From: Oscillospiraceae bacterium
GTDB lineage: Bacteria > Bacillota > Clostridia > Oscillospirales > UBA929
Length of the DNA: 64,000 nt
Reading direction: 5' to 3'
Assembly: GCA_031265355.1 (NCBI GenBank)
Contig: JAISCT010000047.1
Coordinates: 124,001-188,000, forward strand
Part shown: positions 37,301-54,467 of the stretch, piece by piece
Layout of the letters: each line of letters begins with the position of its first letter
Position numbering within the stretch: the first letter of the stretch is position 1
Notes under the pieces: model-generated
Databases searched by the model: none
Told to the model about the DNA's origin: nothing
Seen by the model: the letters and a program-made list of their open reading frames with translations, nothing else
Position numbers and translations under genes: made by a program

Positions 37301-37325
37301 GGATTCCCATCTTCCTCTCGGTTCT
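37301..37325. repeat. Direct repeat carrying the dut SD (copy 1)
   Basis: A 25-nt stretch matching 38503-38527 at 21 of 25 positions (core ATCTTCCTCTCGGTTCT). Together they bracket the HipA-like gene. Confidence 0.6.
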
Positions 37326-38499
37326 ATTTTTTCATGCTCTGTTCGGGCCGCGGTTCCCGGGCGATTTCCTTCAGCATCCCGACGCGGGTCCGTAACGCAA
37401 AACACAGGGCGTCCCGCCGGGCATCGTCGATGTAGGGGCTTTGCCGCAGAAGTTCCGCGTACTCCTCATCGACGCCCTCCAGCGCGCCGAAATCCAGCCA
37501 GTCGAAGCTCGTCACCAACTTGATCTGCTCCGCGTGCCTGGAACGAAACGGCTTGCTCGCCTGCTCCGCGCGGGGCCGGATCATATGCGGGTTCTGGTCA
37601 TACCACAGGGAGGTGCCGCAGTCGAACACCGGGGCCAGCCCCAGCCACACCAGCGTTTCGGCGTCTCGGAGCGCGCCGAAGTTGTTGAAATGCCTGTCCT
37701 GGTTGGCAATGAGGAAATCCACCGCCAACATCCGGTCAAGACTCTCCCGCGCGCCGGGAATTCCGAGAGCCTCACAGCGGCTGAGAAAGTGCTGATATTC
37801 AGACAGATGCCCCGGTTTTTTGCCCGTGGAACGGACATACCATGCGCTGACCAAGTCTGTGTCTTTGGTCACAAAGTCCTCGCAGGCCGAGAGAGGCTGC
37901 ACCCCGTCCCACGTCAGGGCATAGGGCACATGCGGGATGTCCAGGCGCCGCATCATGGCCGAAGCGATCACTTCATTCAGCGGTTCCTGATAGTTTGGCA
38001 AGCTGCCGCCTTTGAGCAGCAGGCATTTGCCGTCCGCCGCCGCCCACTTCTTTTTCAGCCAGCCGTCCGAAGTGTTGTCGGGCGACATCAGATCCAGTTC
38101 CGCGTCCTCCGGCGCCCTGCCAAACAGTGCGTTGCCCACGTCTTCCGAGAACTCGTTCTCAAAAAAGTTGACATCCGCCCATGCGAGCGGTTTCCCTTTC
38201 GGCTTCACCCAATACTGATCGGAGAGGGAGAGCCCGTAACATTTGGTCAAAAGGAACTGCGGCGAGGAGACGCGCAACGCCTCCAGCGCGTCCCTGAGTC
38301 CGCTTCGGCTGGCCGGGATGGAGCGCCCAATCCACCATTCGTGCAAGGCTCTCCGGTCCGGTTTGCCGCTTTTGACCGGAACGCCGACCGGGATATGCGC
38401 CGGATGATAGACCTCGTCGATCTCCGTGACGGCTGCGATGGTCTCGTCAATCGTCAGCTCCACCACCGGAACCGTCTTGTGCATCAAAATAAATTCCAT
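37324..38499 (-). CDS. HipA-like protein kinase
   Basis: 391 residues with a HipA-C/phosphatidylinositol-kinase-like fold: ATP-side Lys in KCLLLKGG, catalytic loop DFLIANQDRHFNNFGALRD (Asp, His, Asn) and metal-binding Asp in APVFDCGTSLW. HipA toxins phosphorylate GltX, but this protein lacks the usual HipA N-terminal subdomain-1 pattern and no HipB-type HTH antitoxin is adjacent, so the target is open. It sits between a PstS-like lipoprotein gene and dut with gaps of 32 and 23 nt. Direct repeats of 25 nt flank it. The SD AGGAAG is rather far (about 14 nt) from the ATG; Met6 is an alternative start. Confidence 0.75.
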   Translation of the reverse strand: MEFILMHKTVPVVELTIDETIAAVTEIDEVYHPAHIPVGVPVKSGKPDRRALHEWWIGRSIPASRSGLRDALEALRVSSPQFLLTKCYGLSLSDQYWVKPKGKPLAWADVNFFENEFSEDVGNALFGRAPEDAELDLMSPDNTSDGWLKKKWAAADGKCLLLKGGSLPNYQEPLNEVIASAMMRRLDIPHVPYALTWDGVQPLSACEDFVTKDTDLVSAWYVRSTGKKPGHLSEYQHFLSRCEALGIPGARESLDRMLAVDFLIANQDRHFNNFGALRDAETLVWLGLAPVFDCGTSLWYDQNPHMIRPRAEQASKPFRSRHAEQIKLVTSFDWLDFGALEGVDEEYAELLRQSPYIDDARRDALCFALRTRVGMLKEIAREPRPEQSMKK

Positions 38500-40559: not shown

Positions 40560-43500
40560 TCAACACAGAGAGCACAGCGTCGCGTAGCCGCGGTCGTCCC
40601 ATACAATGCGGCCCGTATGCTTTGCGTAGTTCATCCCTCTCTCAACCGTTTCCACCACCAGCGGGCCGCTTCTTGTATACCCGAGCTTTTTTGCGGTTTC
40701 CCGGATCAGATCCTCTTTCGGGAGACCGATCTGCTCTTCCAGCACCGCACAAACGGCATTGGCTGACTCCTCTGTAGATACGTCCTTTGCGTCGCGTCTG
40801 TGATGGCCCTCGCCCGTCGCCCGAAATCCGAGATAGGCCGACGGTTCCTGGCCGTCATTCCAATAGAATTTCTGTCCCGCCCACTCGGTATACTTGACCC
40901 CCATGCTTTGCAGAATGTCTGTGCTCCGTGCCTGCACGCGATTGCCTGCACGCGCAATGCCACAACTTTGCAGCACACGTCGAATCAGCAATGTTTCGGA
41001 TATGGGCGCTTCTCTTCGAAGCGTGAGGCGGAATCTGTCCGCAATATGACTCGTGGATTCCGGCAGGACATACTCATCCGCGGAAATGGGCATATTCGGC
41101 AGAGACACCGCCAGATAGACTGTCCCTTGAGACACTGCCGCGCGGTCTTGACTCACAGGCGGTGCCGGCTGGCAGCGGCCCATCACAAGGGTGTTTTCAT
41201 TTGCGACGGTTTCCTCTTCCGACATCGCGGCGGATGGGTTCTCCGCCGCGGCGGTTTCCTGGGGTGGTTCTCTCCTCAGCGTCTCCAACCGCGCCAACAG
41301 CTTGTCTCTCTCTTTCCGGCTGTTATCCCACCAGTCCATGGACCAAATGCGATGCGTTTCCCAGCCGAGTCCATGCAGTACAGAAACCTGTGCGAGTTCC
41401 CGGTCACGCGTGGTTTTTGCCTTGCCGTACAGAGGACCATCCAGCAGAATCCCCAGCAGATAGCGGTTCGGATGGTCCGGATCCACAACGCCCACATCAA
41501 TCCGATATTCCGAATGTCCAACCGATCGCTGTGTTTCATACCCGGCCTCGCCGAGGAAATCACAAATGCTGCCGGCAATCCCGGCCTGCTGCGCAGTCTT
41601 TTGCGGAGAAGCGACTTCCTCCGCAGAGACCCGCCCGCTCTGCGCATACGCAAGAAACGCTTTTAACGCCGCCACGCCCCTTGCGTTGGTTTTCGACAGG
41701 TTGATCTGATCCGGCTGGAGAGATGAAAACACGACCATATCATCCCGTGCCCGCGATACGGCCACGTTGAGCCTGCGCCATCCGCCGTCCCGATTGAGAG
41801 GACCGAAATTCATAAATATTTTCCCCTCCTGGTCGGGGCCAAATCCGATGGAAAATAAGACGACGTCCCGCTCATCGCCCTGTACGTTTTCAAGATTTTT
41901 TACAAACAGCGGTTCTTCCGAATCATATGCCCACGCTTCGAGTCCGCTGTCTGATTTGCAGGCCTCGGTAAACAGATCGTCTATCAAGTTTTGCTGAGAG
42001 ATGTTGAAGGTGACCACACCCACACTGCATTTGCGCAGCGCCGGGTCTTGATAGCGGCGTACCAGTTCCGCAACGACTCTCTCCGCCTCAACCCGATTCT
42101 CTCTGCTTTTGCCGCGATCAAAACATCCGTCCACCGGGACCAGCCTGACCCTCGATTCGCGGTCATTCACCGATGGGAAGGTGTACAGTTTGTTCTCGTA
42201 AAATTGACTGTTGCTGAACGCGATCAGGCTTTCATGGCGGCTGCGGTAGTGCCAAAGCAGATGTGTCTGCGGCATGCCAAGCGCAAGGCAGTCGTCCAAA
42301 ATACTCTCAAGATCTTCCACATCCAGGTTGTCCTCGTCCACTGTACCGCCTGAAAAAAAGCTGGTCGGCGGCATCTGGTTCGGGTCCCCGACCACAATCG
42401 CCTCTTTGCCGCGCGCCAAGGCGCCCACGGCTTTGCATGTCGGCAACTGAGACGCCTCATCAAAGACCACGATATCAAACAGCGGGCGTTTGGGATCGAG
42501 ATACTGCGCGGCTGAAATGGGACTCATCAGCATGCATGGACAGAGGCGCGGCAGCAGATTGGAGATTTGCTCAAACAGCCTTCTGATGCTGAGGCCCCGC
42601 CCCCCGCTGCGGATCGCCCGCTGCAAAATGCTCAGTTCCGAACTCTGCGCCGCTTCTCTTGAAAAGTCCGGTACCTTGGCCGCGAGGCGGCCAAAAATCT
42701 CCTGTTTCGTGACCTCTGTGAGCTCGCGATCAATTCGTTTGAATTGTTCAATCTTTTCGTCGAAAACCGCACCGGAAAACCGATTCAACGTCTCATCCGA
42801 TTCCACGACCGCGACAATCATGGCGGCGTACAGCGCCTTTCGATACGAGGGGAGCACAGCGGCGTGCGCCAATCCGGCCTCATAGCTGTCAACGACATGG
42901 CCGAGGCCCGTACGGCGTACGTCCTGAGCCATGCCTTTCCACACCATCCATTCCCGCAGCGCATCCGCGTGGCCGACGATATCCGCACCGATGGCGCTCT
43001 GCGCGGGCATCCAGTCGGAAAGCCCGTAGCAGTCAAAATCCACAGCAAGCAGGACTCCCAAGCTCTTCTGTGCGTCCAGGAACTCGCGCCAGGCCGCCAC
43101 AAAGGAGTCTATGTCCGAAAACCCCTCTCCGTTGGCCGCAAACAACAGACGCATATGGTCAGACCCCGTCAGCGTCCGCAGTGCCTGGCTGCTCTCTCTC
43201 GCCTCGGCGCACAGGCCTATGATACGCTCCCAATCGGTATTCTCAAAAGCGTGCAGCGCCGCAAGGCTGTCTGTGTTGTGCCGCAGCCACGCGTCCGCGG
43301 CCTGACTCTCTCGCTGGTACTCGGCCAGCAGGGCAAATGCGTCGGAGAGCGTGTTTTTTTCGACAGCGCCAACACAAAAGGGACGAAGGCGTTTTATGAG
43401 CTGGCTTTGCCCAAGCGTTTTGGGCAAAGCCCACTTGGCGGACGCCGCCTTCCACTCCGCCTCCAGCGCCTGCCCATCCTGCTGCAAAAAGTCGGGCGCC

Positions 43501-46370
43501 CAGCGGGCCGTCAGGCGCTTTTTGTTTTCCGCCGCTTTTTGAGCATGCCGGACAAATGTCTGCACTTCTTCCAAGTAGTTCGCGAACGACTCTTTTTGCG
43601 CCCAGCTGCGGGGTATCGCCTCCCACCGTTTGAGTTCCGCCGCGACACGGGCGAGTCTCTCCCATCCGGCTTTCGCGCGCGGCGGATCGACTTGCAGCCA
43701 GGCGGACAGACGCTTGCCCAATGTTTCGGCTTTGGCGGCGGACGCCCGGTACCTGTTGACCGCATCCGGCAGCCCGACACGAACCTGCTGCGAGTAGTCG
43801 AACCGGCCAATGGCGCGAAGCTTGTGCCCGTGCGGATGGCCCACCGCTCTCGCGGCCGCCGTCAGCCGCTCCAGCAACAACTCTTTTTCTTGCAAATCAT
43901 CCGCATGCAAGGCCTCGGCAAACTCCTTGTCAAGGAGAACCGTACCCTCTGCCTGACGGTTGGCCTCGTACAGATTCACCATGTCACAGAGGCTGAGGCC
44001 CGATTGACGCACCGCGTGCAGACTGTGCGCATACGCATTCAGTTCCGCGCGAAGACCCGCCGCGCGTTCGGCGATTTTTTCATACGCCTCCGTGGTCCTG
44101 GCGCCGCGGATCTCCGTCGCGGCGCGCAGCTGTTCCAACACGTCTTTTTTTCTCGATTTGTTGGAATGGAGCTCCAGACAAAACGGGCCGATTCCCAAAT
44201 GATCCAGCCTCTTTTGCACCACGGACAGCGCGGCCATTTTTTCCGCCACAAACAAAACCGTTTTCCCCTGCGCCAGGGCGTTGGCAATGAGGGCGGTGAT
44301 CGTCTGTGACTTGCCGGTCCCCGGAGGTCCGTGGAGCACAAAACTCTCGCCTTTGACCGCGGATGCGATGGCAAACAGCTGGGACGCGTCGGCAGCCATA
44401 GGAAGATACACATCCCCTTCCGGCACCCGGCCGCCTATGTGCATGCCGCCCGCTTCCCACTGCAGGCGCCCCTCCATGAGACTCTTGACCACCTTGCTTT
44501 TCTCCATGTCCTGATAGCGGTTGCGCATGTCGTTCCACATGACGAATTGCGAGAAAGAAAAGATCCCCAAAAACGCCGACTCAAGCACATCCCATCTCGG
44601 CTGCGCCATGATGGCGTGCCGCAGCACCGCAAACACCTCGCGCATGTTTACGCCATGTTCGTCAAGCGGCAGGGGGTCAAGCCCGCCGACCGCGATGCTA
44701 AAGTCCTGCTTTAACATTTCCAGCAGGGTGATGTTCATCTGCGCCTCCTCGTCGCGCAGGCGCATGACATACCCTTTCAGCGCCGATTTCCGGACAATCT
44801 CCACCGGCAGCAGCACCAGCGGCGCATAACGGGCTTTTTGGCTGGCGTTTGTCTCAAACCAGCGCAGGAGCCCGCAGGAGAGATACAATGTGTTTGATCC
44901 ATTTTCTTCCAGTGACGTTTTCGAGGTTCTATACAGGTTGACAATGGCCCGGTTCAGGTCGCTTTCAGACAGGGGAGACCGAAGCCGTCTGTTGGCAAAC
45001 TCGGCCTGTATGAGCTGGGCATACGGACCGACGTCGCAAATGTCTTCGAAATCCTCTGAAACTTTTCCCCGCTGTGCCCATTCCACCGGGCGCGGCATCA
45101 CACCAAATTCGGCGCCGCTCGCAAGTGCGTCTTCCAAATCGGCCAGAGAGGAGGAAAAGATCGGGATAAGCGTTCGGGAGAGTCGCATGTTGATCAGCGT
45201 ATTGCGAAGCCCTAAATCCAACAATTTCCGTTCCCATTGCATCCGCTTGGTCACAGGTGCGGCCGCACCCTCCGTCACGGCGACAGCGCCTCTCATCGTT
45301 TCAGGCGCCGCGGTGAGTTCGGAGGCGTCCCGTTTGTCGAATGCCACAACCCATCCCTGCTCCGTTCGAACGCGCAAGGGCAGAGGGCGGATGCCGGAAA
45401 GCCTGGCCCGGTGGACATCGATGATGTATTCCAGCGCGTCGATTCCTTGCAGAGACTGTATGGCGGCCTTTTCCGCCTCGCTGAAACTGATGTCCTTCCC
45501 GGCGGTCAGCGCCGTGCATTCCACCACGGCGATTTCGCCAATATCCTCGGAAACGCGTTTCGTAATCAACGAGGGGTCGTCCGAGACGGATTCCGGGAAC
45601 GACAAGTCCTCCAGCCAAACGCCCAAAAAGATATGCCCCTTCTGCAAGATCAGCAGCGGACAAAGCCCCATGGCCTCCAGACAGGAGGCATAAAAGAGCG
45701 TGATGTCAAGACAAGTCCCCATGTGCTGCTGCATGACCGCGTCACACAACCGCACGCGCTGCCCCCCGGCTTCAAAGCTGGCCGGCGGGACAGAATAAAC
45801 GATGTTCTGTTCCTGCAGGGCGCCGTATACGGCCGCGGCCTGTTTCTTGACACGGTCAGGATCTCTGCTTTGGTAGGCGTCCAACGACCGGTTGCCCGTC
45901 CACACTCCCAGCAGTTCGGAGGCCCTCGCATTGATCGTCACCACCTCAGGATGGTTGGGCATGACAAAAGCGGCCAGCAGCTCCGGGAAAAAGGCGGATC
46001 CATGCCACTCGTCGTAGGCAAGCGCAACAATTTCTTCCGTGTAGGCTGACAATTCCTCGCCGTTTTGGTGGAGTGAGATCTGCAGAATACCTGTGAGCCG
46101 CTCCGTCAAACCGGCGAGCATCTCCGCGTTTAAATGCAGGGATATGTTTTTGAGTACAACAACCTGCTTTCCGGGCAGCTGCCGCAGCACCTGTTCATAT
46201 GGAATCGAAAGTTCCGGGTTCGTGGTGATGCGGAGGGTAACATCTTCCAACAACTCCGCGCCAAGGTGACAGAGAGAGAGTTCTCTGACAACAGGGATGC
46301 GATTTTGCTGCAATGCAAAATTGACTACGCTCGTGACATCCGGTTTGATCGAGACATCTGCCTTTCCCAC
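40560..46370 (-). CDS. DUF4011 / SF1 helicase / Vsr-like nuclease / DUF3320 protein
   Basis: 1936 residues, GTG start with GGGAGG about 8 nt before it. A transglutaminase-like segment near 205-260 has Cys220 in GTCLD, His246 in KGHIFLG and an Asp in WLED. DUF4011 starts near 375 (RKLLDLGLRNTLINMRLSR). The SF1 (AAA_11/AAA_12, COG1112) helicase has Walker A HGPPGTGKSQT near 680, a long insert, DEASQL near 1303, GDPNQMPP, and motifs VQGDERDVV and NVAVSRARD near 1500-1530. A Vsr/MTES_1575-type endonuclease lies at about 1590-1690 (YRIDVGVVD, GILLDG, TTRDRE, RIWSMDWW). DUF3320 forms the C terminus. Related proteins occur in defence islands. The usual Glu in the GIECDG motif is Leu here, so nuclease activity is uncertain. 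Confidence 0.88.
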   Translation of the reverse strand: MGKADVSIKPDVTSVVNFALQQNRIPVVRELSLCHLGAELLEDVTLRITTNPELSIPYEQVLRQLPGKQVVVLKNISLHLNAEMLAGLTERLTGILQISLHQNGEELSAYTEEIVALAYDEWHGSAFFPELLAAFVMPNHPEVVTINARASELLGVWTGNRSLDAYQSRDPDRVKKQAAAVYGALQEQNIVYSVPPASFEAGGQRVRLCDAVMQQHMGTCLDITLFYASCLEAMGLCPLLILQKGHIFLGVWLEDLSFPESVSDDPSLITKRVSEDIGEIAVVECTALTAGKDISFSEAEKAAIQSLQGIDALEYIIDVHRARLSGIRPLPLRVRTEQGWVVAFDKRDASELTAAPETMRGAVAVTEGAAAPVTKRMQWERKLLDLGLRNTLINMRLSRTLIPIFSSSLADLEDALASGAEFGVMPRPVEWAQRGKVSEDFEDICDVGPYAQLIQAEFANRRLRSPLSESDLNRAIVNLYRTSKTSLEENGSNTLYLSCGLLRWFETNASQKARYAPLVLLPVEIVRKSALKGYVMRLRDEEAQMNITLLEMLKQDFSIAVGGLDPLPLDEHGVNMREVFAVLRHAIMAQPRWDVLESAFLGIFSFSQFVMWNDMRNRYQDMEKSKVVKSLMEGRLQWEAGGMHIGGRVPEGDVYLPMAADASQLFAIASAVKGESFVLHGPPGTGKSQTITALIANALAQGKTVLFVAEKMAALSVVQKRLDHLGIGPFCLELHSNKSRKKDVLEQLRAATEIRGARTTEAYEKIAERAAGLRAELNAYAHSLHAVRQSGLSLCDMVNLYEANRQAEGTVLLDKEFAEALHADDLQEKELLLERLTAAARAVGHPHGHKLRAIGRFDYSQQVRVGLPDAVNRYRASAAKAETLGKRLSAWLQVDPPRAKAGWERLARVAAELKRWEAIPRSWAQKESFANYLEEVQTFVRHAQKAAENKKRLTARWAPDFLQQDGQALEAEWKAASAKWALPKTLGQSQLIKRLRPFCVGAVEKNTLSDAFALLAEYQRESQAADAWLRHNTDSLAALHAFENTDWERIIGLCAEARESSQALRTLTGSDHMRLLFAANGEGFSDIDSFVAAWREFLDAQKSLGVLLAVDFDCYGLSDWMPAQSAIGADIVGHADALREWMVWKGMAQDVRRTGLGHVVDSYEAGLAHAAVLPSYRKALYAAMIVAVVESDETLNRFSGAVFDEKIEQFKRIDRELTEVTKQEIFGRLAAKVPDFSREAAQSSELSILQRAIRSGGRGLSIRRLFEQISNLLPRLCPCMLMSPISAAQYLDPKRPLFDIVVFDEASQLPTCKAVGALARGKEAIVVGDPNQMPPTSFFSGGTVDEDNLDVEDLESILDDCLALGMPQTHLLWHYRSRHESLIAFSNSQFYENKLYTFPSVNDRESRVRLVPVDGCFDRGKSRENRVEAERVVAELVRRYQDPALRKCSVGVVTFNISQQNLIDDLFTEACKSDSGLEAWAYDSEEPLFVKNLENVQGDERDVVLFSIGFGPDQEGKIFMNFGPLNRDGGWRRLNVAVSRARDDMVVFSSLQPDQINLSKTNARGVAALKAFLAYAQSGRVSAEEVASPQKTAQQAGIAGSICDFLGEAGYETQRSVGHSEYRIDVGVVDPDHPNRYLLGILLDGPLYGKAKTTRDRELAQVSVLHGLGWETHRIWSMDWWDNSRKERDKLLARLETLRREPPQETAAAENPSAAMSEEETVANENTLVMGRCQPAPPVSQDRAAVSQGTVYLAVSLPNMPISADEYVLPESTSHIADRFRLTLRREAPISETLLIRRVLQSCGIARAGNRVQARSTDILQSMGVKYTEWAGQKFYWNDGQEPSAYLGFRATGEGHHRRDAKDVSTEESANAVCAVLEEQIGLPKEDLIRETAKKLGYTRSGPLVVETVERGMNYAKHTGRIVWDDRGYATLCSLC

Positions 46371-46409
46371 GTGGATACACCTCCCAGCTCTTCTTTTTGC
46401 ATGGGGCTT

Positions 46410-48572
46410 TCACCTCCCCGTGGGCAGCATGAACGCCTCCTGCATGTCCGCTATGTCAATATATCTGTCCGCAAACTGCTTGCGCAACAATTCCGAGGGA
46501 ACAAATTCACCATATTTGCCTATGGGCGCCACCTCACTCGGCAGCGCCAAATCATCAATGGTCAACTCCCATGCCTTTATTGCCCGCAATTCCGCTGTCA
46601 ATTCACTGCGAGAGACTCCTTTAATGAGCATCATCGGCCAATGGTGCGGCACGAACTGTCTGTGTTTCAATTTCTTGTTCAACGCAAAATCCAGCGCATT
46701 GAAGGCTCTTGTGCCAAGCCACGGAAACACGCCGCATGTATCCGGTGAAATTTCAAATATTCCCTCATGCAAAGCACCGGTTTGTCCGATGAGCCGGCGT
46801 ATTTCCTCTAAACGTTTCGCCGCGTTTGGATGCAAGTACGGGTATTGACCATCCGTCGCAATCACTTCCCGCATCTTTTGCAACACTTTTGTATGCTCTA
46901 ATCCCTCACCGGGGCCGCGCCATATAGTTGGCGGTTTGCCTTGCACTTTTTCTACATATATGATCTTTTGTTCCCTATCAAGTTCAGTCACAACCCATGC
47001 GATTCCCGCAAGCACAAATGTGGTATCCGGGGGCATTGGGTCGTTTAACACACCGATTTCGTGTGATTTATCGCGTACAGAGTATTCAACCGGCGTTTCA
47101 AAAACCGAATAAAATTCATAATGGTTGGTCAAATGTTCACCATTTTCACCGACCAGCAAAGTGTTTCCAAATTTTTCTATCTGTTTCTTTTCAAGCATAT
47201 ACCGCAACAGCTGTCTATAATCTTCCTGTGTTATAAAAGCGAATGCGTTTTTCGTCAACATTGTCTGTGCCAACAATTCTGCGGTCGCTTCGCCGCGCGA
47301 AAATAAAAAACTCATGGTCTGATGAAACAAAACACCAAACGGATATTTTTCTATAAAAATAGGCTCCAGCCAATTTTCTCGATACAACTCTATCAGCGCA
47401 ATACATTTTACGAACAACCAATTGATATGTTTATAAAATTCACTGCCCGCGTCATGTTTTTCCTCGTTAAAAATAAAGCACATCTCAGAAATACCACTGC
47501 GTCTCCCGCTTCTTCCAAGCCGCTGTGCCAAACTGGAAACAGTGTGCGGACACCCTGTCTGTACAATCCTTTCCAAATCGCCCAAGTCTATGCCCAGTTC
47601 CAAAGTGACAGTGGCGCCGGTCACCAAAGGCAAATCTGAAGTTTTCATCTGCGTTTCAGCGTATTCACGGTTCGAGGCGGAAACGCTTCCATGATGTACC
47701 AGAAACGTGTCCCTCTCTTTTTTTCTGCCTGCCAGCTCTCTTAGATTTACGATGTTTCGCTCTACGTCCGCACGAGAGTTGGAAAAAATGATACTCTTTC
47801 TCCCCTGTGTCAGACTGTACAGCGTCTCGTAGTAATCTGTCCAACTGGTCCCTTCGGCATCCAATTTCAGCGGGAGCGTATAAAAATGGCTCGCCATAAT
47901 CCGCGCTTTGCGTCGTTCGGCGGAAACGGATGGCGTGACGCATTTTCGTTCTGTGCCCCCGTTTAACCATTTTTCAGCGGCCACCAAATCGCCCAATGTA
48001 GCGGAGAGCCCAATCCTTCTTGGTACAGAATCTATCAATGCTTGTATGCGCTCCAAAATGGACGACAGCTGCACACCCCTGTCCTCGCCAAGAAAATTGT
48101 GCACTTCATCTATCACGACAAATCTCAAATCGGAAAACAACGCGACAATGTCCTGCTTCCGTTTCATCAGCATTGCCTCTAAAGATTCAGGGGTTATCTG
48201 CAAAACACCTTTCGGATTTTTCAGCAATCTGTTCTTTTTTGTTCGCCCAACATCGCCGTGCCATTTTGTTACAGGGATATATGCCTCTTCCAGAAGCACC
48301 GCAATTCGTCCGAATTGATCATTGATAAGCGCCTTAAGCGGAGCGATATACAACACACCCACTCCGTTTGGCGGCTTGTTGTATATCTCTGTGATGATCG
48401 GAAGAAACGCCGCCTCTGTTTTGCCCGAAGCGGTGGGCGTAGCCATGAGCAAATTGCCGTCGCTGTTAAAAATTACATCGCAAGCCGCCACTTGGATTTC
48501 GTGTAGTTCTTCCCAACGGTTGCGATAGATATAATCTTGTATAAACGGAGCGAGTTTCTCAAATGTGCTCAT
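46410..48572 (-). CDS. Lhr-type DEVH-box helicase (BrxHI-like)
   Basis: 720 residues, superfamily 2. Motif I MATPTASGKTEAAF (about 43-56), Ia APLKALINDQ, motif II IDEVHNF (about 157-163), motif III GLSATLGD, IV IIFSNSRADVE, V ELGIDLGDLE and VI QRLGRSGRRSG. Lhr-like helicases of this size occur in BREX and in TerB-linked clusters beside DUF2791 ATPases. The first four bases overlap the ATPase stop (ATGA) and 39 nt separate it from the giant helicase gene, so all are one operon. It likely unwinds DNA or DNA:RNA in the complex. Confidence 0.88.
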   Translation of the reverse strand: MSTFEKLAPFIQDYIYRNRWEELHEIQVAACDVIFNSDGNLLMATPTASGKTEAAFLPIITEIYNKPPNGVGVLYIAPLKALINDQFGRIAVLLEEAYIPVTKWHGDVGRTKKNRLLKNPKGVLQITPESLEAMLMKRKQDIVALFSDLRFVVIDEVHNFLGEDRGVQLSSILERIQALIDSVPRRIGLSATLGDLVAAEKWLNGGTERKCVTPSVSAERRKARIMASHFYTLPLKLDAEGTSWTDYYETLYSLTQGRKSIIFSNSRADVERNIVNLRELAGRKKERDTFLVHHGSVSASNREYAETQMKTSDLPLVTGATVTLELGIDLGDLERIVQTGCPHTVSSLAQRLGRSGRRSGISEMCFIFNEEKHDAGSEFYKHINWLFVKCIALIELYRENWLEPIFIEKYPFGVLFHQTMSFLFSRGEATAELLAQTMLTKNAFAFITQEDYRQLLRYMLEKKQIEKFGNTLLVGENGEHLTNHYEFYSVFETPVEYSVRDKSHEIGVLNDPMPPDTTFVLAGIAWVVTELDREQKIIYVEKVQGKPPTIWRGPGEGLEHTKVLQKMREVIATDGQYPYLHPNAAKRLEEIRRLIGQTGALHEGIFEISPDTCGVFPWLGTRAFNALDFALNKKLKHRQFVPHHWPMMLIKGVSRSELTAELRAIKAWELTIDDLALPSEVAPIGKYGEFVPSELLRKQFADRYIDIADMQEAFMLPTGR

Positions 48573-49897
48573 ATCTCAAACCCTTTAAATTCCGTGTGTA
48601 TGCTTGTCTCGTTTTCAGAGACTGAAGTGTATTCAAACCCATCGCCTCTCAAAATGCTCTGCACGGTTTTATTGGGATTTTGCAACAGGATGTTCAACAC
48701 TTCAATGAAGTCGCGAATGATCTCGCGGGGCGTGATGTTTTGCCCCGCGCCGATGCGCTCATATTCTGTCTGGATAAAAAACTGGAGCTCGTTTGGCAAC
48801 ATTTGTGGCGCATACTGATACACCTGACTGTGAATCAGTTCCAACTTTTGCATCAAAAAGTACATCTCTTCCGGTGTGAGTGTTTTGAGCTTGATGATGG
48901 GTGAGAGTAGATCGCGCGTAGTTTCGTCCGAAAAACGGCTGCTCTCCAGCCGTGATTTAAGCGCTTCATAGCTAAACACCCCCCGGCGGGTATCTGTAAT
49001 GCTCTGCGGCGTTCCGCTCATAATAACGCCAATATGCTGCGCTTTGCCCTGCATAATGTCATTGTACATAGTCAGAATCTTCTCATAGTTATACTGGCGG
49101 GAAATCGTGCTTGGAATCTTAAACAAATTCACCAATTCGTCAACGATCATCAGCATCCCTTTGAACCCTGCCCTGACGACAAACATCGCAAATAGCTTGG
49201 TATATTCATACCAGTCATCGTCCGTAATGATGACCCCAATGCCCAGTTCCCGCCGCGCCTCTGTTTTTGTCGAATATTCACCTCTGAGCCATTTGAGGGT
49301 CTTTCTTTTCAGTTCATCGTCCTCTGTCATGATTGCTTTCCAATATAGAGAAATAATCCGCGCAAAGTCAAACCCGTGGACAATCGTCTCAAGCTCGTTG
49401 ATCGTCCGATGGATTTTGATCTCCACCAACGGATTCAAGCGCGCATCGTCCGCGGTCAGCGATGCCTCCTGCATCACTTCCGTTTTCAGAGTAGCAACCC
49501 ATCTTTGCAACAAGAGGCTCAGCGCGCCGCCGTCCGGCAATGTCTGTGTAGACAAATTTTTCATCAATTCCCGGTAGGTAGCAAGCCCCTCGCCTTTGTG
49601 CCCCATCAATCGCCTCTCGGGAGACAAATCTGCATCGACGACGACAAAACCGCGTTCCATAGCGTAGTTTCGGATGGTTTGGAGTAAGAAGCTCTTTCCT
49701 GCCCCATATCTACCGACGACAAAGCGAAATGACGCTCCGCCTACGGCTATGGTCTCCACGTCATGCAGCAGCGCATCAATTTCGTCCTTTCTGCCGACAG
49801 TGATATAGCCAAGACCTGTACGCGGTACAACGCCGCCTTTCAACGCGTTCAGCAACGTATTCGCAATACGGAGCGGTATTTTATTGGCAAGGCTCAT
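48569..49897 (-). CDS. BrxD-like (DUF2791) P-loop ATPase
   Basis: 442 residues. Walker A GRYGAGKSFLL (62-72), Walker B GMLMIVDELVNL (about 246-258), sensor-like GVIMSGTPQS. The family (DUF2791, BREX ATP-binding proteins BrxC/BrxD) forms AAA+-type ATPases acting on DNA in phage defence. It starts and ends with 4-nt overlaps with its neighbours, a strong sign that the TerB protein, the ATPase and the helicase are made in fixed proportion and act together. No PglZ, PglX or BrxL is present, so this is not a complete BREX system. Confidence 0.85.
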   Translation of the reverse strand: MSLANKIPLRIANTLLNALKGGVVPRTGLGYITVGRKDEIDALLHDVETIAVGGASFRFVVGRYGAGKSFLLQTIRNYAMERGFVVVDADLSPERRLMGHKGEGLATYRELMKNLSTQTLPDGGALSLLLQRWVATLKTEVMQEASLTADDARLNPLVEIKIHRTINELETIVHGFDFARIISLYWKAIMTEDDELKRKTLKWLRGEYSTKTEARRELGIGVIITDDDWYEYTKLFAMFVVRAGFKGMLMIVDELVNLFKIPSTISRQYNYEKILTMYNDIMQGKAQHIGVIMSGTPQSITDTRRGVFSYEALKSRLESSRFSDETTRDLLSPIIKLKTLTPEEMYFLMQKLELIHSQVYQYAPQMLPNELQFFIQTEYERIGAGQNITPREIIRDFIEVLNILLQNPNKTVQSILRGDGFEYTSVSENETSIHTEFKGFEI

Positions 49898-51516
49898 TGG
49901 TTTTGACCTCCTGCCGCCGTTTTTAAATCATCAAAGTAAAAGTCATTGATGCACACCACGCCTTCCGCACAATCAATCACGTTATCGGCGATGACCGAAA
50001 GGGCCTTGCCGTTGATCGCTTCTATCAGCATTTCACTATTGGCGGGCGCCTGTCCGCCCGCCAGTAAGGTTGACACAAGAACAAGCTCCTCACGCGACAA
50101 TACATTCACAAATCCGTCCACCCCCGACATTTCTCCGGTCCCTACCGTCGCCGGCGGCGACTGTTTGAATGTCTGTTCTTCTTGCATATCCTCGGACAGG
50201 ATCAGCTTTTGTGCCGTTTCCTCATGGTCTCTTTTGATCTCCGCCAGTTTGCTCATGTCTATGGTCACAAGCCTTGCCTGCATTATCTCCTCATCTTTGA
50301 TCGCAACATGCGCCATTTGACAGTATTCTAAGATCGCCTTGACAATGGTCTGCTCAAACGCCGGACTGATTATGACGCCGTATGCCTTGCCCTTCCAAGT
50401 CTTCAACTGACGCAACGAATGACGTCCTCTGTACGTAGGCGGCGATAGAAAACCGTTCTCCAGCTGTGATATACTCGGCATCTGCAAGCTTTTCTTGTAA
50501 CCGAAAGCCTTCCGCATCTTGATTTCGATGCATTTCATTATATATCCAACGACCGATTTATAGGCATCAAATGAAAGGTATTCACGATGCCATCCTCGTG
50601 CGCTGCGTTTGATGGATTCCAGTGCATCAATTTTTACGACAGCAGGGGGCATAGAAACAGTCTTATGCGGAATGTTTTTAAACAGCGACGACATCCTCTC
50701 CCGACACATTTTATGAAACATCTTGCGAAAGTCCACGCCATTATCTTTGAAGAGCTTTGCAAGAGAGCGAACTACATAGCATGCACATTTTTCAACTGTC
50801 ATTGCATCATTCGCCTTGTAAAACCGTCCATTTGTTATCTTAAACGAAGACGACAGTTCGATCGTCTTCAAATCATCCCAATCACAAGAGATGGTTTTCT
50901 TAATTTGTTCCACATCCATAGTGTAACAAGGAACAGGGAAACGACGGCTGACGACCGCAAATTGTTCTGTCAATTCCGCGTGATGAACCACAAAATAATC
51001 TCTGATCCACTCCAAAAGGCAAGAATCCAACCGATCACTATACTTTTTAAAGGCCGACCAAAATGCTATCAGTTTATTGATTCCATCTGTCGCGTCTATC
51101 ACGCCTATATCATTGAGCAGTTCGTACAAATAGCAAAAGGCATATGAAATCGAAATGTTCTCAACATGGCCCTGACGGACCTTTGTGCGCCAAGTGAAAT
51201 ATGTGCGCAATTGAGAATCGTCCATTTTAGAGTATGAGGAATAAGCGGCATCAAAAGGCACTATCTTATCATAATCGTCTATGAAATCTTGCATAAAAAC
51301 AGCTTCTTTATAAAAAGTATTTCCGTCGTCCATATAATATCTATAATGTCCATATTCATACTCAGCCCCGCCAATTTTTCGCATTTTTGCAAATGTGTTA
51401 TACGGTTCGGACAATTGTTTTGGATGCAACTTCTCCGCTTCGTAGGAAGAGGGTTTCTTATATCCCGCAATAATGGCAGCGAAGAGCTGTTCTATTCCTT
51501 CATTGAATATCGTCAT
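49894..51516 (-). CDS. TerB-N / TerB-C domain protein
   Basis: 540 residues. The N-terminal TerB-N domain (about 60-215) is recognised by MDDSQLRTYFTWRTKVRQG and SYAFCYLYELLNDIGV. The C-terminal TerB-C domain (about 440-535) is recognised by LSREELVLVSTLLAGG, LIEAINGKALSVIADNVID and FYFDDLK. The middle is helical with a basic patch. No central TerB helix bundle is evident. TerB-N/TerB-C proteins have been linked by comparative genomics to ATPase-helicase pairs in predicted DNA-processing systems. It is the first gene of the leftward operon; SD AAAGGG, about 10 nt from the ATG. It may be the scaffold or sensor. Confidence 0.85.
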   Translation of the reverse strand: MTIFNEGIEQLFAAIIAGYKKPSSYEAEKLHPKQLSEPYNTFAKMRKIGGAEYEYGHYRYYMDDGNTFYKEAVFMQDFIDDYDKIVPFDAAYSSYSKMDDSQLRTYFTWRTKVRQGHVENISISYAFCYLYELLNDIGVIDATDGINKLIAFWSAFKKYSDRLDSCLLEWIRDYFVVHHAELTEQFAVVSRRFPVPCYTMDVEQIKKTISCDWDDLKTIELSSSFKITNGRFYKANDAMTVEKCACYVVRSLAKLFKDNGVDFRKMFHKMCRERMSSLFKNIPHKTVSMPPAVVKIDALESIKRSARGWHREYLSFDAYKSVVGYIMKCIEIKMRKAFGYKKSLQMPSISQLENGFLSPPTYRGRHSLRQLKTWKGKAYGVIISPAFEQTIVKAILEYCQMAHVAIKDEEIMQARLVTIDMSKLAEIKRDHEETAQKLILSEDMQEEQTFKQSPPATVGTGEMSGVDGFVNVLSREELVLVSTLLAGGQAPANSEMLIEAINGKALSVIADNVIDCAEGVVCINDFYFDDLKTAAGGQNQ

Positions 51517-53573: not shown

Positions 53574-54194
53574 TTACAACTCGTGAGTCAAGAGTTCTAT
53601 AAAAGCGGGGCTGATACTCGGCCCATCATCCGATTTTTGTAATTTGACCATAATCGCTTCATCCGTCAGGATCGCGTATTCGATGCCCTTTTTAACGCCA
53701 CGATCTTGCCATTCGTCGGTTAGCTCTTTGCGGACTTGAATTGCCTGTAGACGCTGATTGATCCATTCTCTTGAGTAACCCTTTTTAAGATAAGTTTCAA
53801 GAGCGCGGTCTATGGTTAACTCCGGGTCGACGGTCTCATCTATCCGTTCACGTCCAACCGTAGCCAACCACATCTTAAAAGGTTCGGCTTTGGGAGACGG
53901 TATGGACTGGATAATCCGTAGAAGTTGCTCTGTATTGGCGACATCAGTATTATACCGCTTACCGTCTGCCGCTTTCATTTTCAGTTGCTTACAATTTGTA
54001 AGCAACTGATCTTCACCCTCTTCATTCAAGCGTTTTTTCATAACTGCCCAATAAGTGCTCGCATTACGCTGTGTAGATTGATCGGTTAAAACGGCGACCA
54101 CATCGACCACCGAGAACAACCACTCCCCGTTTTCCTCGTCCCATGCGGTACGGATGCGTTTGTCTTCAAATAATTGAATATTATCTCCGCTCAC
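53574..54194 (-). CDS. BRO-N phage antirepressor, C-terminally altered
   Basis: 206 residues. The BRO-N domain (about 1-105) shows IRTAWDEENGEWLFSVVDVV, the TYWAVMKKRL segment and QLLRIIQSIPSPKAEPFKMW. The C-terminal part is conserved up to RGVKKGIEYAILTDE. Relatives then continue for about 70 residues (a TRQYKNLKGL-like stretch), but here 26 unrelated residues follow, so the end has been replaced or frameshifted. The GTG at 54194 is used because the promoter start point falls near 54217, which excludes the longer frame; GGTGG is 6 nt upstream. Prophage or mobile-element origin. Confidence 0.78.
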   Translation of the reverse strand: MSGDNIQLFEDKRIRTAWDEENGEWLFSVVDVVAVLTDQSTQRNASTYWAVMKKRLNEEGEDQLLTNCKQLKMKAADGKRYNTDVANTEQLLRIIQSIPSPKAEPFKMWLATVGRERIDETVDPELTIDRALETYLKKGYSREWINQRLQAIQVRKELTDEWQDRGVKKGIEYAILTDEAIMVKLQKSDDGPSISPAFIELLTHEL

Positions 54195-54223
54195 TGTATC
54201 CACCCGTCTTATATACAATATGT

Positions 54224-54383: not shown

Positions 54384-54467
54384 TGGTGCGGGCGGCGGGA
54401 TTTGAACCCGCACGCCTTGCGGCACAAGAACCTAAATCTTGCATGTCTGCCATTCCATCACGCCCGC
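54384..54467 (-). tRNA. tRNA-Leu (anticodon TAG)
   Basis: 84 nt with CCA encoded (54386-54384). The acceptor GCGGGCG pairs with CGCCCGC, discriminator A. The anticodon stem CAAGA/TCTTG encloses TTTAGGT, anticodon TAG. A long variable arm, as expected for Leu, and a T loop TTCAAAT. Mobile remnants begin on its 3' side, which is a common integration site. Confidence 0.95.

Follow-up and report, generated by a model that had tools for sequence, protein, structure and literature searches.

Do four neighbouring genes, all read in the same direction, form one defence system or two? The question is raised by a locus of the window, the stretch of 64,000 nucleotides of an Oscillospiraceae bacterium analysed here. 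An earlier note had proposed a single new four-gene system, with a giant helicase-nuclease as its effector. That the locus has a role in defence is well supported. Profile matches name the first three genes as Shango and the giant as ProA, each of which already stands as a separate entry in defence libraries. It is very probable that two independent, already named anti-phage systems adjoin here, in a variable site anchored by a tRNA-Leu gene, with Shango placed ahead of a resident single-gene ProA. A supposed new system is replaced by two exact names, and the window holds two known defences that are intact and otherwise unremarkable.

Layout of the locus

The locus consists of four intact leftward open reading frames, and both their coordinates and their open frames, as first described, were confirmed (Table 1). 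The sngA/sngB and sngB/sngC junctions are ATGA overlaps of 4 nt. The fourth gene follows after a gap of 39 nt (46371-46409), with a Shine-Dalgarno-like stretch, GGGAGG, ahead of its GTG start. This succession of SngA, SngB, SngC and ProA on one strand is operon-like. A pattern scan on that strand found no terminator-like site between sngC and proA, so that read-through transcription is possible, and it may serve both Shango and ProA. Profile searches with Pfam recovered the domains previously named: TerB_N, TerB_C, BrxC_BrxD (previously DUF2791), DEAD/Helicase_C of the Lhr-like type, DUF4011, AAA_11/AAA_12, MTES_1575 with its Vsr-like nuclease fold, and DUF3320.

Table 1. Features of the locus and of its surroundings, in window coordinates
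Feature	Position	Strand	Evidence
sngA, Shango TerB_N/TerB_C protein, 540 aa	49894..51516	-	PADLOC SngA 7.8e-57; Pfam TerB_N 7e-33, TerB_C 7.8e-06
sngB, Shango BrxD-like ATPase, 442 aa	48569..49897	-	PADLOC SngB 1e-181 vs BrxD 1.3e-46; NCBIfam BrxD 158 bits, below the cut-off of 350
sngC, Shango Lhr-like DEAD/DEAH helicase, 720 aa	46410..48572	-	PADLOC SngC 5.4e-226 vs BrxHI 8.2e-135
proA, anti-phage protein ProA / PDC-S37, 1936 aa, GTG start	40560..46370	-	NCBIfam NF058533 2044.5 bits, cut-off 1500; PADLOC PDC-S37 E=0, 1162 bits
Junction of the two modules, past the sngC stop and before the shared DNA starting at 46385	46386..46409	.	blastn; G+C step 0.468 to 0.58
ProA residues 1-378, predicted Ig-like and transglutaminase/PNGase-like domains, invariant C220, H246, E284	45237..46370	-	32-sequence alignment; AlphaFold2; VIA-align
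ProA MTES_1575 (Vsr/PD-(D/E)XK-like) domain, residues 1601-1695, Glu position 1642 = Leu	41286..41570	-	Pfam 8.5e-24; residue survey; fold match
tRNA-Leu (TAG), anchor of the variable site by rplQ/rpoA	54384..54467	-	ARAGORN; orthologous site in L058/L144
Bro-N phage-type gene between tRNA and Shango	53574-54218		phrog_15286, 2e-82; Pfam
HipA_C-like gene, just below the Pfam cut-off	37324-38499		30.2 bits vs 30.5

The first three genes as a Shango system

As judged from profile matches, genes 1-3 are SngA, SngB and SngC of Shango, a three-gene phage defence named and tested in Escherichia coli and Pseudomonas aeruginosa PA14 (PMC10250203). PADLOC finds all three components. Their order, A-B-C on a single strand, is identical in the plasmid records checked, and the protein types – TerB, ATPase and DEAD/DEAH helicase – are those of the published system (PMC10250203). 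The window departs from it in two respects: its SngA has diverged and gives a weaker profile match than SngB or SngC do, and a ProA gene comes after SngC. The expected motifs can be read in the sequence, with Walker A as GRYGAGKS and Walker B as LMIVDE in SngB, and DEVH and QRLGRSGR in SngC. A sequence search of the PDB with SngA and SngB returned no match, as did searches for Shango by DNA similarity in E. coli and in phage records.

The ATPase and the Lhr-like helicase have homologues in BREX, and SngB does match BrxD, as SngC matches BrxHI. The triad could then be read as BrxD, BrxHI and a TerB protein, in a locus that resembles BREX type 2 or descends from BREX. This is next to impossible. 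The BREX scores are much the weaker ones, with SngB and SngC both lying far above them on the Shango profiles and SngB falling well short of the NCBIfam cut-off for BrxD. None of the core genes of BREX (PglZ, PglX or another methylase, BrxL, BrxC) was found among the locus proteins scanned. The earlier note had already set BREX aside, and rightly so.

Might these genes instead encode housekeeping helicases of DNA repair? In one family of genomes, discussed below under its code f154, a block made of Shango and a ProA-like gene does adjoin genes of housekeeping look. The idea is nevertheless highly improbable: relatives of Shango protect against phages, and the three PA14 genes alone give PAO1 modest protection against several of them (PMC10250203). 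Furthermore, SngB has a patchy distribution, being present in 86 of 394 genomes sampled from the order, and plasmids commonly carry it (681 records). The locus of the window, too, sits in a variable, tRNA-anchored site. Going by the families to which the Shango proteins belong, SngA, with its TerB-N and TerB-C domains, would be a sensor or adaptor, SngB a BrxD-like AAA+ loader, and SngC an Lhr-like SF2 helicase that might move on invading DNA and block phage replication.

ProA, a helicase with a probably inactive nuclease domain

Profile assignment also identifies gene 4: it is the anti-phage protein ProA (NCBIfam equivalog NF058533), PADLOC candidate PDC-S37. The NF058533 match is full-length (residues 17-1900) and above the curated cut-off, with no difference of note from the family. 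Hhe was considered as another identity, because it shares the DUF4011 domain, the SF1 helicase and the MTES/Vsr-like fold, and was rejected: its NCBIfam score of 762.4 bits is below the cut-off of 2000, and its PADLOC E value is 6.9e-164, against 0 for PDC-S37. A literature search found no origin or test behind the name ProA, no mechanism for the protein and nothing for PDC-S37; nor did it establish a possible identity of ProA with the 'Prometheus' of DefenseFinder.

How does the protein fit the role of helicase-nuclease effector that had been proposed for it? The helicase half stands, with the SF1 motifs of the window protein intact (Walker A, Walker B, IV, Va and VI), and this DUF4011/SF1 helicase may sense or unwind foreign DNA. 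The nuclease half fares less well. The fold of the Vsr-like domain is kept, its best structural matches being the catalytic domain of I-Bth0305I (3r3p, Z 11.3) and 3hrl (Z 11.2), and the window protein retains Asp1625 and Asp1644. The conserved glutamate of the ExDG motif that marks an active nuclease of the MTES_1575/PD-(D/E)XK type is, however, a leucine in the window (residue 1642, encoded at about 41445-41447). At this position, 84 of 85 sequences of the ProA clade have L, M or I, and all 12 outgroup DUF4011 proteins have E. The histidine that comes after the motif is nearly always lost in the clade as well. With the glutamate and usually the histidine gone, the nuclease half of the effector idea is weakened. 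We infer that the domain no longer cuts DNA; it looks catalytically dead, and DNA binding may be its sole remaining role. Some PD-(D/E)XK enzymes relocate their catalytic residues, and for this reason the reading of a dead nuclease stays provisional.

The opposite end of the protein is more promising. Its 378 N-terminal residues have no Pfam match above cut-off, but an AlphaFold2 model (pLDDT 86.6) predicts an Ig-like domain followed by a second domain. With Foldseek alone, the list of matches was filled by Ig-like domains. VIA-align aligned 157 residues of the second domain (model residues 123-328) with yeast PNGase 3esw (Z 9.4, rmsd 4.0), the only one of the structural matches listed to cover this domain. 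Yeast PNGase is an enzyme of the transglutaminase fold. The likeness comes from predicted structure alone, a sequence search of the PDB with this region having returned no match. Cys220, His246 and Glu284 are invariant in all 32 sequences aligned. The N-terminus is predicted to combine an Ig-like domain with a transglutaminase/PNGase-like domain that carries a candidate Cys-His-Glu triad, and the output of ProA would more likely come from this domain than from the Vsr-like one. ProA offers testable points here, with a nuclease that looks dead at one end and a Cys-His-Glu domain that looks active at the other.

Probably two systems side by side

On sequence grounds, Shango and ProA in the window are of separate origin. 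A genome of the same genus (G002, contig JAIRTA010000120, loci L058/L144) has, at the orthologous site, a ProA 83% identical to that of the window and no Shango there; SngB was not found in this genome. There, rpoA and rplQ are followed by tRNA-Leu, by a RhuM gene and a DUF3791 gene and, after 42 nt that copy the 3' end of the tRNA, by ProA; the comparison covers the rpoA side of the site, the contig ending about 417 nt past ProA. With blastn, window positions 40579-46385 align with L058 15792-9985 at 81.9%. The shared DNA stops at 46385, 24 nt past the sngC stop and ahead of the start of proA. Base composition changes across the same gap: G+C is 0.442 in SngA, 0.487 in SngB and 0.468 in SngC, against 0.58 in both ProA and rpoA. 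In trees, the window SngB groups with that of genome G384 (locus L138), its nearest relative at 79% identity, in which no ProA lies beside Shango and ProA is found 190 kb away. The window ProA groups with stand-alone ProA proteins.

Surveys of neighbourhoods tell the same story. Among 80 ProA loci from genome contigs, the 57 with at least 2.5 kb of upstream sequence were counted, and Shango is upstream of ProA in none. A sample of the order, 394 genomes in all, has SngB in 86 and ProA, over its cut-off, in 15; four have both, against a chance expectation of 3.3. Leaving aside the genome of the window, SngB and ProA lie on different contigs in the remaining three. Plasmid-borne copies, in records inspected one by one, are also apart. 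Canonical ProA is not linked to Shango beyond chance, and they do not travel together as a conserved four-gene unit, the very outcome that the earlier note had named as speaking against its proposal.

We may now weigh one cooperative four-gene system, in which Shango would sense or remodel phage DNA and ProA would be the helicase-nuclease effector. It draws on the single strand, the short gap and the missing terminator-like site, on six Shango loci of family f154 that carry a ProA-like fourth gene, spaced at -64 to +31 nt, and on the large multi-domain helicase that also adjoins Shango in PA14 (PMC10250203). Yet the three PA14 genes, cloned without that helicase, still protected (PMC10250203). 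ProA stands alone at the orthologous site, co-occurrence is at chance, the two systems are catalogued separately and the nuclease glutamate is lost. The cooperative system is quite improbable, and two adjoining systems remain our preferred explanation.

The site in which they adjoin is variable. At L058:8001-9889, a RhuM/DUF3791 island lies between tRNA-Leu and the copy of the tRNA 3' end (36/42 identical), which suggests that tRNA-Leu is an insertion site in the genus. A similar duplication was looked for in the window and no copy was found. Decayed toxin-antitoxin and phage genes had been reported nearby. The phage part holds, with a Bro-N phage-type gene, while the toxin-antitoxin part comes down to a HipA_C-like match under the cut-off.

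A degenerate relative of ProA behind Shango

Including the window, 109 Shango loci were surveyed, and a large helicase of the DUF4011/ProA type, or similar, directly follows SngC in eight: the window, six genomes of f154, a family within the same taxonomic order, and one locus with an unrelated helicase of 922 aa (L149). Within f154, this is the case in half of the 12 Shango loci (L237, L242, L251, L254, L257 and L258), where the gene codes for a diverged relative of ProA, 1453-1713 aa long. At about 20-27% identity, it is collinear with the whole of ProA or the greater part of it. The ProA-like proteins of f154 form one clade (SH-aLRT 100). Those behind Shango occupy four different flanking contexts, and two related genomes have the ProA-like gene at the same flank without Shango there. 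All eight f154 proteins compared, six from behind Shango and two from loci without it (L288, L289), are degenerate, being altered at Cys220, the first Arg of motif VI, the Gln of motif Va and the Glu of Walker B. The window ProA, whose motifs are intact, does not share this degeneration.

That six of the 12 f154 Shango loci carry a ProA relative means that the two families may be linked in function; these six loci represent one family, not independent events, and their pattern hints at a fourth Shango subunit in that family only. A broader version would make ProA-family proteins functional partners of Shango, with the degenerate f154 homologue as a fixed, scaffold-like fourth subunit and the window as an independent joining of both families. 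We consider it unlikely. The degenerate proteins behind Shango in f154 would exemplify something rare, a defence helicase put to new use as a pseudoenzyme.

Other genes are found next to SngC in the Shango loci. A second SngC-like helicase apparently lies in tandem in L201, L211, L212 and L214 (the copy checked, in L211, matches PADLOC SngC at 3.7e-223). In L219, L222 and L223, a gene for a helicase of about 613-632 aa directly follows SngC, and the L222 copy is RecQ/DpdF-like (PADLOC DpdF 1.2e-191).
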